A stretch of DNA of 56,796 nt from Nautiliales bacterium (GTDB lineage Bacteria; Campylobacterota; Campylobacteria; Campylobacterales; JAADDX01). Location: NCBI GenBank assembly GCA_030826765.1, contig JAUUDM010000022.1:1-56796 (forward strand), in the 5' to 3' direction. The notes under the pieces were generated by a model that saw only the letters and a list, made by a program, of their open reading frames with translations, was not told the origin of the DNA and ran no database searches. Positions 18,933-23,574 of the stretch are shown in pieces. The position numbers and the translations under genes are program-made. The stretch's first letter is position 1. Every line of letters starts with the position of its first letter.

Positions 18933-19493
18933 TTACTTTTCTTCTTTTTGTTTTTTAAGAGCGTCAACAAGTCCTGGGTGAGCAAAGTTTGGCATATTAA
19001 TATCATTATGACATCTTACACAACTAACATCTTTTCCAGCTTTGTTATCTTTCCAATACTCAGTATGAGCAAATCTACTTGCTTCACTCATTCCATAAGC
19101 AGTTTTTGGATCTTCTACTTTAGCATGACAATGTAAACATCCACTATCATAAGTATAATGTTCCATTTCATGAATATTTTCTTTGAAATCAACTTTTTTA
19201 ATAATTCCAACTTCTGCAAGAGCATCTCTTGTTCCTGAAATTCCTTTTGCAACTAAATATCCTGCTAAACTTTCATGAGGTAAATGACAATCAGTACAAT
19301 GATGTACTTTAAATCCATGTGGATTATTTCCACCATGAACACTAATTTCAAAACTTTTTCCCATAGGTTCCATTGTATGACAACTTATACAAAATTTATC
19401 TTGTCCTGTTATATCTACCATAACTGCTGCAGCATATGCTATACCTAAACCAACAACGGCACCACCAACCCATGCCCATAATTTTGTACTCAT
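18933..19493 (-). CDS. NapC/NrfH-type membrane tetraheme cytochrome c
   Basis: A 186-residue quinol-dehydrogenase cytochrome with an N-terminal membrane anchor (about 8-28) and four CxxCH sites at Cys35, Cys66, Cys119 and Cys158. The family takes electrons from menaquinol and hands them to a periplasmic multiheme partner. NrfA is absent here and an octaheme Hao lies 2.5 kb away, so the likely partner is Hao, as described for hao-associated NrfH-like proteins in other Campylobacterota. Upstream there is a promoter with tandem CACTT repeats matching the hao promoter, and a terminator follows the gene. Confidence 0.88.
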   Translation of the reverse strand: MSTKLWAWVGGAVVGLGIAYAAAVMVDITGQDKFCISCHTMEPMGKSFEISVHGGNNPHGFKVHHCTDCHLPHESLAGYLVAKGISGTRDALAEVGIIKKVDFKENIHEMEHYTYDSGCLHCHAKVEDPKTAYGMSEASRFAHTEYWKDNKAGKDVSCVRCHNDINMPNFAHPGLVDALKKQKEEK

Positions 19494-19522: not shown

Positions 19523-19552
19523 ATTCTATATTAAAAAAGTGTCTTTTAAGTG
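19523..19552 (-). promoter_or_regulatory. Putative OmpR-type operator and -10 box of the NrfH-like gene
   Basis: On the minus strand CACTT occurs at 19552-19548 and again at 19541-19537, an 11-bp period. TAGAATTC starts at 19528, 13 bp after the second repeat begins. The same elements with identical spacings lie upstream of hao. The first repeat overlaps the last codons of the histidine kinase gene. Tandem repeats at 10-11 bp in the -35 region are typical activator sites for OmpR-family regulators, and that reading is inference. Confidence 0.5.
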
Positions 19553-21093
19553 CTTTTTGGAAGTATTATTTTAAAAACTGCACCTATTTTAGAATTTTCA
19601 ACTAAAAGCTTTGCATCAAAATGTTTTGTGATAATAATTTTACTCATATAAAGACCTATTCCTGTTCCTTGTGACTGAAATTTAGTTGTAAAATATGGTT
19701 CAAAAATCTTATCTTTTATTTTTTCATCTATACCACCAGCATTATCCTCAATTGAGATGATATTTTCATCTAAACTAATTATTATTTCTTTATCTAAAAT
19801 ATTTCTTTCATTTAAAACATCAATAGCATTATTTAAAATATTTAAAATTACTTGAGAAAACTCCGTTTTATATCCATAAAGTTCCATATCAAAATTATAT
19901 TTTTTTACTATTTTTATATTTTTTAATCTTCCTTCAATAAGTTTCAAAGCATCATTTATCACATCTTTTACATAAAAATTTTGCTTTTTTTTATCTTTTT
20001 TAAAAAATCCTGTAAAATCATCAATTGTATTTGACATATAATTTATCTGCTCGTTTACTTTTTCATAAAACTTTTGCATATACTTATCATCTAATTTTTG
20101 AAATTCATAAGCTCTATTTAAATTTTGCACTAAAAGTGAAATTCTTGTAATTGGATGTCTCCATTGATGGGCAATATTTCCAAGCATTTCTCCAAGTGAA
20201 GCAAGTTTACTTTGATGCATAAGCATTTGTTCTTTTTCTCTATTTTTTTCAATTTCTTCATTTACTCTTTCATCTAATAATTTATAAAATTCATATAATG
20301 GTTTAGAAAAAAAGAAACCAAAAGGAATAGACAATAATAAAGCAACTAAAAACATTGTAATTGCCAAATCTCTTGCTATAAGTTTTTGTTTATGTAAAAA
20401 CTTTTTATTTTGCATAAAAATAAGTTTATATTTTCCTAATTTATCTACATAAATATCATTTGTAATAAATTTTTTATTTTCATTTATCATTTTTGTAGCC
20501 AAATCAGAAGAAAACATATCAAAAACTGTTTTTGATTTTATAAAATTACTATATAAAATTTTTCCATTTTTATCTATAAATAAAATTCTAAATTTATCAT
20601 TTGGTAAAGATTTTAAAAATCCTTCTAATGAAGTCTGAATAATAAGTGAATTAGTGTTTTTAGTAGTAATTTTAGTAAATAAAGATAATTTATTTTTTTT
20701 TATAAATTTTCCATAATTACAATAAATTTTTTTATCTTTTTTACAAAAAAAATTCAATTTTTTACTTTCGTAAACTATACTTTTAAAATCATCATTTGAA
20801 ATAAGTAAAGTTTTGAAAATAATAGATAAAATAGAGCTATTTGGAGTAAAATTTTTTAAAATTGTTCCATTTGTAACTGCTTCAAGAGCATTACGAGATG
20901 ATAATTCTTTTTGATGAAAATTATATTCTATATTTTTAGCTGATAATAATACATTTGATTTAAATTCATTTTGTGAAAATTTTGTAAAATAAACCATTCC
21001 TATAGCAAGAATAATTAAAATTATAACAAAAGCAAATAAAGCAAATGCAAAAGTAATTTCTAATCTATAATTATTTTTCAATCTTATATCCAC
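19546..21093 (-). CDS. Membrane sensor histidine kinase
   Basis: 515 residues. A membrane helix at about 14-36, a periplasmic sensor domain of about 200 residues and a second helix at about 242-263 are followed by a coiled coil. The HisKA box has phospho-acceptor His309 (GNIAHQWRHP, the wording common in Campylobacterota), and an HATPase domain carries NNAIDVL, DNAGGI and GTGIGLYMSK. The sensor region matches no domain I can name; it contains two cysteines (117 and 125). The start is GTG preceded by AAGAGG, overlapping the response regulator gene by 23 bp. The signal is probably a nitrogen oxide or redox cue related to Hao respiration, which is inferred from position only. Confidence 0.88.
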   Translation of the reverse strand: MDIRLKNNYRLEITFAFALFAFVIILIILAIGMVYFTKFSQNEFKSNVLLSAKNIEYNFHQKELSSRNALEAVTNGTILKNFTPNSSILSIIFKTLLISNDDFKSIVYESKKLNFFCKKDKKIYCNYGKFIKKNKLSLFTKITTKNTNSLIIQTSLEGFLKSLPNDKFRILFIDKNGKILYSNFIKSKTVFDMFSSDLATKMINENKKFITNDIYVDKLGKYKLIFMQNKKFLHKQKLIARDLAITMFLVALLLSIPFGFFFSKPLYEFYKLLDERVNEEIEKNREKEQMLMHQSKLASLGEMLGNIAHQWRHPITRISLLVQNLNRAYEFQKLDDKYMQKFYEKVNEQINYMSNTIDDFTGFFKKDKKKQNFYVKDVINDALKLIEGRLKNIKIVKKYNFDMELYGYKTEFSQVILNILNNAIDVLNERNILDKEIIISLDENIISIEDNAGGIDEKIKDKIFEPYFTTKFQSQGTGIGLYMSKIIITKHFDAKLLVENSKIGAVFKIILPKST

Positions 21094-21712
21094 TACCTCT
21101 TACATTTTTAATAAAGTTTATTTCAAGTTTTGAGCGAAGTTTTTTTATTTGAGTTCTTAATGTATTATCACAAACTGCTTTATCTTCCCAAATATAATCT
21201 TTTATTGTTTCAGTATCCACAATTTGTCCTATATTTTGAAAAAGTAGCTCCAAAATATATTTTTCATTATTAGTAAGTTCAACTTCTTTACCTTTATAAA
21301 AAAGTTTTAATTTTTTTAAATCAAATTTATAATCATCATTTACTTTTATACAATTAGTACTTTTAAAAATAAGTTTTTTTATACGAAGTTCAAGTTCTTT
21401 AAGTTCAAAAGGTTTTTTAATATAATCAGCTGCTCCTAAATTAAAAGCCTCTTCTAAATGGTCCACATCAGAATACGCTGTTATAAAAATAACTGGCACA
21501 TCAGAATATCTTTTAAGTTCTTTATAAAGTTCAAAACCACTCATCCCATCCATATTTACATCAAATAAAAACACATCATAATGAGAAGGATAGATATTTT
21601 CCAAAGCCTTTTTAGGATTAGAAAAATAATCTACTTTATTACCTGCTAGTTCAAAATAATCTTTTATTGACTCTCCAATAAATTCATCATCTTCAACAAC
21701 AAGTATCTTCAA
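21071..21712 (-). CDS. OmpR/PhoB-family response regulator
   Basis: 213 residues: a receiver domain (acidic VVEDDE at 5-10, phospho-acceptor Asp51 in LFDVNMDG, conserved Lys in YIKKPF), then a winged-helix DNA-binding domain with ELTNNEKYILELL, the recognition helix region DNTLRTQIKKLRSKL and the wing GSGYKIEK. It sits directly after the small cytochrome gene and overlaps the kinase gene, forming a standard pair. It is the only DNA-binding regulator in the window, and the tandem CACTT sites before hao and the NrfH-like gene are its best candidate targets. Confidence 0.92.
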   Translation of the reverse strand: MKILVVEDDEFIGESIKDYFELAGNKVDYFSNPKKALENIYPSHYDVFLFDVNMDGMSGFELYKELKRYSDVPVIFITAYSDVDHLEEAFNLGAADYIKKPFELKELELRIKKLIFKSTNCIKVNDDYKFDLKKLKLFYKGKEVELTNNEKYILELLFQNIGQIVDTETIKDYIWEDKAVCDNTLRTQIKKLRSKLEINFIKNVRGSGYKIEK

Positions 21713-21949
21713 TTATTTTGTCCCATATTCTTTAGCTACTTTTTTTATCTCTTCATCACTCATACTTTTTGCCATAGCAGGCATTGTCATTCCAGCTTTT
21801 TTACCATTCTTAAAATCTATCATCATTTCAGTAATTTCTTCTGGTGTAAATTTATCTAATTTTACTTGATAACTTCCATTATGACACATTGCACAATTTG
21901 CTGCAAATAATCCTGATACAATTAAACTAAATAAAACTATTTTTTTCAT
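21713..21949 (-). CDS. Small periplasmic monoheme cytochrome c
   Basis: A 78-residue class I-like cytochrome c with a signal peptide (about 1-16), one CAMCH heme site and a methionine-rich MTMPAMAKSMSDEEI segment that would give the sixth ligand. It is first in an operon with the response regulator and sensor kinase, with essentially no spacer to the regulator gene, and is divergent from hao. It could carry electrons to or from Hao or report redox state to the kinase. Both are guesses from position. Confidence 0.88.
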   Translation of the reverse strand: MKKIVLFSLIVSGLFAANCAMCHNGSYQVKLDKFTPEEITEMMIDFKNGKKAGMTMPAMAKSMSDEEIKKVAKEYGTK

Positions 21950-21973
21950 TGATAAACCTTTATTTTTTTGAGA

Positions 21974-21979
21974 ATTATA
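21974..21979 (-). promoter_or_regulatory. Extended -10 element of the cytochrome/two-component operon
   Basis: TGCTATAAT on the minus strand is an extended -10 sequence 25 bp before the ATG of the small cytochrome gene. No clear -35 is seen, which is usual for Campylobacterota. The operator upstream of hao lies about 30 bp further out in the same divergent region. Confidence 0.45.
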
Positions 21980-22009
21980 GCAATATTTTATTTAAAAAAT
22001 ATATTTTGG

Positions 22010-22039
22010 CACTTTTAAAACACTTTTTTTTCTTACAAT
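22010..22039 (+). promoter_or_regulatory. Putative OmpR-type operator and -10 box of hao
   Basis: CACTT at 22010 and 22021 are tandem repeats with an 11-bp period, followed by TACAATTC starting at 22034, 13 bp after the second repeat begins. The matching set before the NrfH-like gene has the same three spacings. The repeats cover the place of a -35 box, which is otherwise absent, so activator dependence is likely. The site lies in the region shared with the divergent operon that encodes the response regulator. Confidence 0.52.
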
Positions 22040-22071: not shown

Positions 22072-23574
22072 ATGAAAAAAATCGTAACAGCTGGTTTAGG
22101 ATTAGCAGTTTTAACTACAGCTTCAATGGCTGCAAGTTTAAATGACAATCCAAACTATAAAAAACTTAAAAACTTCCATCCAAAAGTTAAATCTGAAACT
22201 TGTCTTATGTGTCACAAAGGAACAGATGCAGGAATAGTTGCAGATTGGCAACATTCTAAACATGCAAAAGCAGGAGTTGGATGTGTAGAATGCCACGTTG
22301 TTCCAAAAGATTATCCAACAGCACTTAAATCTCACCCAATCAAAGGTAGTAATTGGACAGTTGCAGTTGCAGTATCAAGTTTAACTTGTGCTAAATGTCA
22401 CTCAAAAGAAGTAACTGAATATATGAATTCAGGTCACTCAAGAGGTGGTGCTCAATGGCTCGCAGCAAATGGAAGCAAACATGGTTACTTAATGAGTAAA
22501 CTTGCTTATAATTACGAAGGTATGAGAGGTAATTCTAAAGGAATTAATGGAACAGATGGTAAACATATGAATGCTGGAATCAGAAAAGAATTCCAAGCTA
22601 ACCAAAATACTCCAAGAATATCTGATTTATCAGTAGCTAATATCTGTATACAATGTCATGGTGGTATTGTTAAACTTGATAAAAATGGTAAACCTGATGC
22701 TGCTACATGGCCAAATGATGGTATAGGAGCATTATATCCAGATGGTGGTGTTTCTAACTGTACTTCTTGTCACTCAAGACATAAATTTAGTGCAGCAGAA
22801 GCTAGACAACCAGGTGCATGTACAAACTGTCACTTAGGACCTGACCATCCAGATAAAGAAGTATTTGAATCAAGTGTTCACGGACATATTTTTGATACAA
22901 ATGAAGAAGATTATGACTTCTCAACTGGTGCTCAAAAACCAGGAAAAACTGTAAGAGCTGGAACATGTTTCACATGTCATATGAGTGGAATCAATGGATT
23001 ACATGCAACTCACAATGTTTCTGAAAGATTAAAATGGAACTTATGGGCTCCTAAATCATTCGAAAGAACAAAAGGTGCAGAAACTGCTGGTTGGGCTTGG
23101 TATAAAAATAGAAAAATACTAAGAGGTAACCCAAAAGCTGGTAATCCTCAAGGACCAGAAGCTGCAAGAAGTGAAATGAAACAAGTATGTGCTACTTGTC
23201 ACGAAGCAACATTCACAAACAACTACTTCCAAAGAGTAGATGCTCAAGTCACTCTATATAATCAATATAGAACTATGGCAGAAAAAATGATGAAAGAATT
23301 AAAAGCTAAAGGGTTAATCAAAGCTGATGTATGGTCTGATCCATTCTTCAAACTTGATTATTATTTATGGCATCACGAAGGTAGAAGAATGAGACATGGT
23401 GCTGCAATGGGAAGTCCTGATTATGCTCACTGGCATGGTGTATTCCAAGTAATGCAAGATATCAGAGAAATGAAAGATATTTACGATTACAGAATGAAAA
23501 TGTATAAAAAATATGGAAGTGCAAAAAAAGCATTAGAAAATGAAGTTCCAATGCCTGTAGTTACTCACGAATAA
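22072..23574 (+). CDS. hao: Octaheme hydroxylamine oxidoreductase-type cytochrome c (Hao)
   Basis: A 500-residue secreted protein (signal peptide about 1-20) with eight CxxCH heme sites at Cys44, 71, 106, 192, 230, 250, 299 and 373. The Hao-type C-terminal helices include HHEGRRMRHGAAMGSPDYAHWHG. Octaheme Hao proteins of ammonia oxidisers oxidise hydroxylamine. The Campylobacterota type is thought to work reductively on nitrite or hydroxylamine during nitrate ammonification with a NrfH-like partner, which fits the tetraheme cytochrome gene nearby. Whether the tyrosine that cross-links the P460 heme is conserved needs an alignment. The start has AAGGAG upstream. Confidence 0.93.
   Translation: MKKIVTAGLGLAVLTTASMAASLNDNPNYKKLKNFHPKVKSETCLMCHKGTDAGIVADWQHSKHAKAGVGCVECHVVPKDYPTALKSHPIKGSNWTVAVAVSSLTCAKCHSKEVTEYMNSGHSRGGAQWLAANGSKHGYLMSKLAYNYEGMRGNSKGINGTDGKHMNAGIRKEFQANQNTPRISDLSVANICIQCHGGIVKLDKNGKPDAATWPNDGIGALYPDGGVSNCTSCHSRHKFSAAEARQPGACTNCHLGPDHPDKEVFESSVHGHIFDTNEEDYDFSTGAQKPGKTVRAGTCFTCHMSGINGLHATHNVSERLKWNLWAPKSFERTKGAETAGWAWYKNRKILRGNPKAGNPQGPEAARSEMKQVCATCHEATFTNNYFQRVDAQVTLYNQYRTMAEKMMKELKAKGLIKADVWSDPFFKLDYYLWHHEGRRMRHGAAMGSPDYAHWHGVFQVMQDIREMKDIYDYRMKMYKKYGSAKKALENEVPMPVVTHE

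Follow-up and report, generated by a model that had tools for sequence, protein, structure and literature searches.

Tandem-repeat sites at the hao and nrfH/cycB promoters of a Nautiliales bacterium as predicted operators of the two-component system encoded between them

Genes and predicted operators of the locus

In our study, two tandem-repeat sites in the DNA of a Nautiliales bacterium were identified as predicted operators. A single two-component system of the OmpR/PhoB type, whose genes lie between the sites, would act on both and activate hao and cycB (and nap in the relatives). The probability of this reading was estimated at roughly 0.82; we infer its three parts, namely binding by the neighbouring regulator, the direction of control and the signal. 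A two-component regulon had been proposed in the earlier note, and it was supported by the conservation of the sites, the rarity of the composite motif, the co-occurrence of the motif and the recognition helix across families, and the published co-induction of haoA, cycB and napA (PMC3701875).

The window, i.e., the whole stretch of 56,796 nucleotides that was analysed (contig JAUUDM010000022.1), contained the genes in the order ccsBA, nrfH/cycB, histidine kinase (HK), response regulator (RR) and cytochrome c, all on the minus strand, followed by hao on the plus strand. The features are listed below with their coordinates in the window.

18933..19493, minus strand: NrfH/NapC-family tetraheme quinol dehydrogenase (CycB, cM552 type); 4 CXXCH motifs; Pfam Cytochrom_NNT 4e-21
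19523..19552, minus strand: predicted operator-promoter of the NrfH/CycB-like gene, CACTTAAAAGACACTTTTTTAATATAGAAT; half-sites 19552-19548 and 19541-19537; -10 TAGAAT 19528-19523
19546..21093, minus strand: sensor histidine kinase with HisKA and HATPase_c, two TM segments and a periplasmic sensor predicted to be dCache-like (about residues 36-240)
21071..21712, minus strand: OmpR/PhoB-family response regulator, TTG start; Pfam matches to Response_reg (6.5e-28) and to Trans_reg_C (6.8e-17), each exceeding its cut-off
21713..21949, minus strand: small mono-heme cytochrome c of 78 aa, first gene of the cytc-RR-HK operon; Cytochrome_CBB3 2e-8
21974..21979, minus strand: TATAAT, putative -10 box in front of the divergent cytc-RR-HK operon, its function predicted from the sequence
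22010..22039, plus strand: predicted hao operator-promoter, CACTTTTAAAACACTTTTTTTTCTTACAAT; half-sites CACTT 22010-22014 and 22021-22025; -10 TACAAT 22034-22039
22072..23574, plus strand: hao, octaheme cytochrome, Nautilia-type HaoA; 8 CXXCH motifs; 73-78% identical to the relatives

The two sites were present on opposite strands, at 22010-22039 (plus) and 19552-19523 (minus), exactly as the earlier note had described. In both, the CACTT-N6-CACTT repeat had a period of 11 bp, and the -10-like box began 13 bp past the start of the second repeat. On the NrfH side, the repeat reached into the kinase gene and overlapped its stop codon (19546-19548). Comparison with the relatives gave the refined conserved form GCACTT-N5-RCAC-N10-TANAAT, in which the 11-bp direct repeat, also written GCACTTT-N4-RCAC, kept a constant gap of 8 bp to the TANAAT box; the repeat and the -10 box of the motif proposed earlier were conserved, but the TC after the -10 box was not. 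It had also been pointed out that neither site has another -35 box. No other was present, but its absence is uninformative as evidence, given that a conserved -35 box is missing from the sigma-70 promoters of Campylobacter (PMC4456614).

A BLAST search of the window returned no RR-like protein besides the response regulator, whose gene lies between the two sites, as had been claimed. This regulator contained the canonical receiver residues D8, D9, D51, T78 and K100 and the recognition helix CDNTLRTQIKKLRSKL; the kinase gene overlapped the regulator gene. A 76-aa cytochrome c likewise preceded the regulator in the sister genome (G001). The NrfH/CycB-like protein contained a NapC/NirT domain and scored under the NrfH equivalog cut-off. 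Hao and this protein have the make-up of a reverse-HURM pair, an octaheme Hao with a tetraheme NapC/NrfH-family partner (8 and 4 CXXCH motifs), and both were found to have orthologues in Nautilia profundicola by similarity and synteny. The HaoA of N. profundicola was reported to lack the cross-linking tyrosine of oxidative HAO (PMC3701875).

The hao repeat was located at about -58 to -43 relative to the putative TATAAT of the cytc-RR-HK operon, in reverse orientation; judged from this position, the single site in the window may serve both hao and the divergent operon. A site directly before the RR operon was not found in some relatives (e.g., locus L243), and therefore autoregulation is not general.

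Frequency of the motif in the genome

The bare CACTT-N6-CACTT repeat was found at chance level in the 1.51-Mb genome, with 6 sites against 7 of the reversed control and about 3.5 expected. The exact composite CACTT-N6-CACTT-N8-TANAAT occurred only twice in the same genome, at the two sites of the earlier note, against an expected count of 0.017 under a first-order Markov model; an occurrence at chance frequency, which that note had named as grounds for giving up the proposal, was therefore not observed for the composite. With one mismatch allowed, 6 composites were found in the window genome and 1 in the control, and 100 matches against 31 in the control were found in 60 order-level genomes. 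The sites at C33:3293 and C37:96590 were located within genes. A one-mismatch site (G000:C22:65048, and likewise L011:11951) looked by eye like the stem of an intrinsic terminator (AAAAGTG...CACACTTTTTT) and was set aside.

Conservation upstream of hao and nrfH/cycB

Conservation was examined in the sister genome together with 21 genomes from the neighbouring family, N. profundicola AmH (G075) among them. The repeat was seen upstream of hao at a first look on eight contigs from relatives. In the full set, the start of hao was readable in 21 genomes of two related families, and the composite preceded the gene in every one of them (14 exact and 7 with one mismatch). The motif was conserved in every relative keeping the regulator, and the loss foreseen by the earlier note as a refutation was not observed. 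Upstream of nrfH/cycB it was present at 20/20 testable loci (8 exact, 5 with one and 7 with two mismatches), where the 8-bp gap and the TANAAT box were invariably kept; the nrfH site of G032 was observed separately, and that of G074 was outside the scoring. The shuffled consensus essentially never matched these promoters as well. Both promoters kept the site where hao and nrfH were located far apart (G047 and G075) or on separate contigs (G001).

The two sites could be a chance resemblance of two AT-rich promoters, in line with the chance frequency of the bare repeat. This explanation is refuted by the conservation: the spacing between the RCAC half-sites was 11 in 41/41 promoters, and the flanks had diverged. 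The fixed positions of the motif were 91-96% identical between promoters, compared with 37-40% in the 60 bp of upstream flank, and this difference is a footprint of selection. We regard a chance origin as extremely improbable. Many of the compared genomes are close relatives and the loci are thus not fully independent; the stronger argument for conservation is the distance between the window genome (G000) with G001 and the neighbouring family, over which hao is about 76% identical.

The repeat was absent from the hao homologues outside the clade (L014-L016 and L055-L058). In one genome (G060; L187/L189), the intact hao was directly followed by a second, split copy, which was preceded by a degenerate operator with 2 mismatches.

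Proposed scope of the regulon and the napA promoters

No napA was found in the window genome, whose completeness is rated at 99.7%; the only matches were molybdopterin enzymes with 25-30% identity. In the relatives, the repeat was present upstream of napA in inverted orientation in 17/20 loci, and the distance from its start to the start codon was about 110-127 bp, or 139 bp at one locus. Judged from a conserved TATYAT box, it would be positioned at about -85 to -69. Four half-sites in 11-bp phase preceded napA in G074, and a forward site with a -10 box was found in front of napA in G077. Arrays of three and four repeats are bound by PhoP (PMC4832192). The napA of G074 (L231/L233) was matched as two pieces with a gap and may be interrupted.

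As the repeats were also present upstream of napA in the relatives, the regulon of the family, as read from the promoters, appears to cover nap, hao and cycB and to be reduced to hao and cycB in the window genome, which retained both sites. The earlier note had proposed a regulon dedicated to Hao; this held for the window genome, without napA, but not for the relatives. The window genome kept Hao, CycB and the regulator without NapA, and nitrite must therefore come from outside or by another route.

It may also be supposed that the repeats are not operators but belong to the core promoter recognised by an alternative sigma factor, or to plain AT-rich promoters. The fixed distance between the repeat and the -10 box would fit this explanation; it is very unlikely, since the repeat was inverted and located upstream at napA, four half-sites were in phase in G074, the -10 box TANAAT is sigma-70-like and the composite was rare genome-wide.

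Proposed link between the regulator and the motif

The kinase gene was located directly upstream of nrfH in 19/20 Nautiliaceae loci, and the regulator gene (69-77% identical) preceded it wherever the contig reached. Distant homologues of the regulator (46-54% identity) were found in G025, G028, G043 and G057, in or beside the operon for a 12-heme ExtM-like cytochrome, and the same repeat was present upstream of that operon in all four. The recognition helix NTLRTQxKKLR was common to the window regulator and these homologues (NTLRTTMKKLR in G025). No exact repeat was found around 20 control RR loci (36-44% identity, 287 kb in total), and the helices aligned among them differed. A plasmid-collection search with the regulator returned only generic homologues with less than 60% identity. 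At L131, L133, L134 and L135, in other Campylobacterota families, the repeat headed an operon of the ExtM-like 12-heme cytochrome, thioredoxin-like proteins and a related RR-HK pair.

As counter-evidence, the 100 one-mismatch matches in the 60 order-level genomes have to be considered, and clear CACTT repeats with -10 boxes were found in G007 and G012, where this regulator is absent, and some adjoined regulators with other helices; the motif alone therefore does not identify its binder. The genomes G012 and G007 contained clusters of CACTTTTTNNNCACTTTTT-type promoters (L137 and L139-L141), some near RR/HK genes with helices unlike that of the window regulator, and these clusters are probably other regulons with a similar half-site. 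Going by these sequences, several Campylobacterota regulators may have a CAC-N8-CAC core in common. Another OmpR-type regulator, e.g., a CosR/HP1043 homologue or a second two-component system, could accordingly bind the sites, with the neighbouring regulator present by synteny only. The related repeats near other regulators of Campylobacterota fit such a binder, and HP1043 too binds an 11-bp direct repeat (PMC5253667); HP1043, however, recognises TTTAAG-N5-TTTAAG, which is not conserved here, and the repeat tracked the helix NTLRTQxKKLR across distant operons and was absent around the 20 other regulators. Binding by such a regulator is quite unlikely.

Expression and proposed mechanism

In N. 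profundicola, haoA, cycB and napA were reported to be up 8.5-, 7.1- and 4.6-fold, respectively, under nitrate and sulfide compared with ammonium and polysulfide, a comparison in which nitrate is not the sole variable (PMC3701875). All three sites were present in this strain. The published locus tags are 0556 for napA and 0559 for cycB (PMC3701875), which leaves 0557 and 0558 for the regulator and the kinase and matches the synteny at L249; by this synteny, NAMH_0557 is the predicted regulator in N. profundicola.

We propose that the dCache-type kinase would sense a periplasmic cue of nitrate/nitrite respiration and phosphorylate the regulator, two molecules of which would then occupy the DNA from about -36 to -21 in head-to-tail arrangement. 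Direct repeats of 7+4 bp are known to be bound by tandem dimers of OmpR/PhoB regulators (PMC4832192). With TANAAT taken as the -10 box, the first half-site would replace the -35 box, similar to the way in which PhoB acts at pho boxes, and the second would lie in the spacer. The bound regulator would recruit sigma-70 polymerase, and Hao, the nitrite reductase that forms hydroxylamine, and its quinol dehydrogenase CycB would be switched on, as would nap in the relatives.

The same regulator could instead act as a repressor which keeps sigma-70 from the stretch between -36 and -21 until nitrate or nitrite releases it. The repeat does overlap the -35 region and the spacer, and derepression would fit the co-induction data equally well (PMC3701875). 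However, the napA repeat is located upstream (about -85 to -69), the usual place for activation, the promoters are devoid of another -35 element, and PceP, a Campylobacterota regulator with boxes over the -35 region, was reported to be an activator (PMC7755780). We consider repression unlikely and retain activation as the preferred reading.

Sensor domain of the kinase

A fold search with the whole kinase returned only the kinase core, and the sensor was therefore modelled alone. The model (18 orthologues; pLDDT 86, pTM 0.77) matched the dCache domains of TlpA, TlpC and Tlp3, and the sensor thus looks like a dCache type. Sensors of the NarX/NarQ type are four-helix bundles. A nitrate sensor of that type, with its P-box, was ruled out by the dCache-like model. 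The residues C117 and C125 were invariant in all 18 orthologues and were placed on neighbouring strands in the model, where they could form a possible disulfide or redox switch. Nitrite, hydroxylamine, nitrate and the redox state are candidates for the ligand; as the system persists where nap is missing, a Nap-dependent signal is disfavoured. Tentatively, and with considerable doubt, we suggest that the pair may sense periplasmic nitrite, hydroxylamine or NO from the Hao pathway through a dCache domain with the invariant cysteine pair. The regulator family might then run multiheme-cytochrome respiration across Campylobacterota (Hao here, the ExtM-like 12-heme cytochrome elsewhere) with one half-site code, replacing the -35 box at hao/cycB and being distal and inverted at nap.

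Comparison with known systems

The kind of regulator, the geometry of the repeat and its placement at -35 are known, and, going by the searched literature, the proposed regulon for hao/reverse-HURM is new. The DccR/DccS system of Campylobacter jejuni uses the direct repeat WTTCAC-N6-TTCACW, with an 11-bp period, near -35. This box and the window repeat have the CAC-N8-CAC core in common. In the late stationary phase, DccR/DccS controls a small set of proteins of the periplasm and the membrane (PMC9449129). It is not known to be linked to hao.

PhoB at the pho box and PhoP bind head to tail to tandem direct repeats (PMC4832192), which have the 11-bp period of the window repeats, and PhoB sites overlap the -35 region (PMC3348028), comparable to the repeat at hao/cycB. 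The window system differs from PhoB in its half-site (GCACTTT, not TGTCA), its targets (hao/cycB/nap) and its dCache-like sensor. The window regulator scored below the cut-offs of the PhoB equivalogs of NCBIfam (131 vs. 270 bits for Bacteroidetes PhoB and 101 vs. 296 bits for PhoB); its mode of action may resemble that of PhoB, but the protein itself is not PhoB.

PceP/PceS of Sulfurospirillum, also Campylobacterota, is an OmpR-type system with direct repeats over -35, which activates a respiratory gene cluster and in which one upstream site serves two divergent promoters (PMC7755780), like the proposed hao site; its repeat is CTATW-N17-CTATW, however, and it serves tetrachloroethene respiration. 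HP1043/CosR is an OmpR-type regulator with an 11-bp direct repeat at promoters (PMC5253667), like the window system, but it has a TTTAAG half-site and a degenerate receiver and is an essential orphan. The window regulator was not identified with it, having a canonical receiver, a partner kinase and GCACTTT repeats.

NssA/B/C of Wolinella, NarXL/NarQP and NrfR/NrfS of Desulfovibrio regulate nap/nrf in nitrate ammonification (PMC6682613, PMC12285233), and none was reported for Hao. NssA/B/C are single transcription regulators, unlike the window pair, and identity with Nss was ruled out on this ground. In the searched literature (N. profundicola, strain PV-1 and reviews, largely outside subscription journals), no regulator of hao/reverse-HURM was named and the tags NAMH_0557/0558 were absent.

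In reverse-HURM nitrate ammonification of vent Campylobacterota, toxic hydroxylamine is released and the genes respond to the nitrogen source; with the present system, a means of control would be known for the first time for the hydroxylamine-forming nitrite pathway of these heat-loving bacteria. With the kinase, the regulator, the half-site code and three target promoters named in a cultured strain, the question is directly testable, and the composite is a portable signature to find the regulon in metagenomes. The composite was also present upstream of a gene whose conserved 97-aa product (QILSFGEIxEPHE...) has no family assignment, located at L117:540-833 (G000), L122:5401-5697 (G032) and L127:5280-5570 (G047). 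It was forward in G032 and G047, and inverted and about 140 bp upstream in G000; this gene is a possible further member of the regulon.
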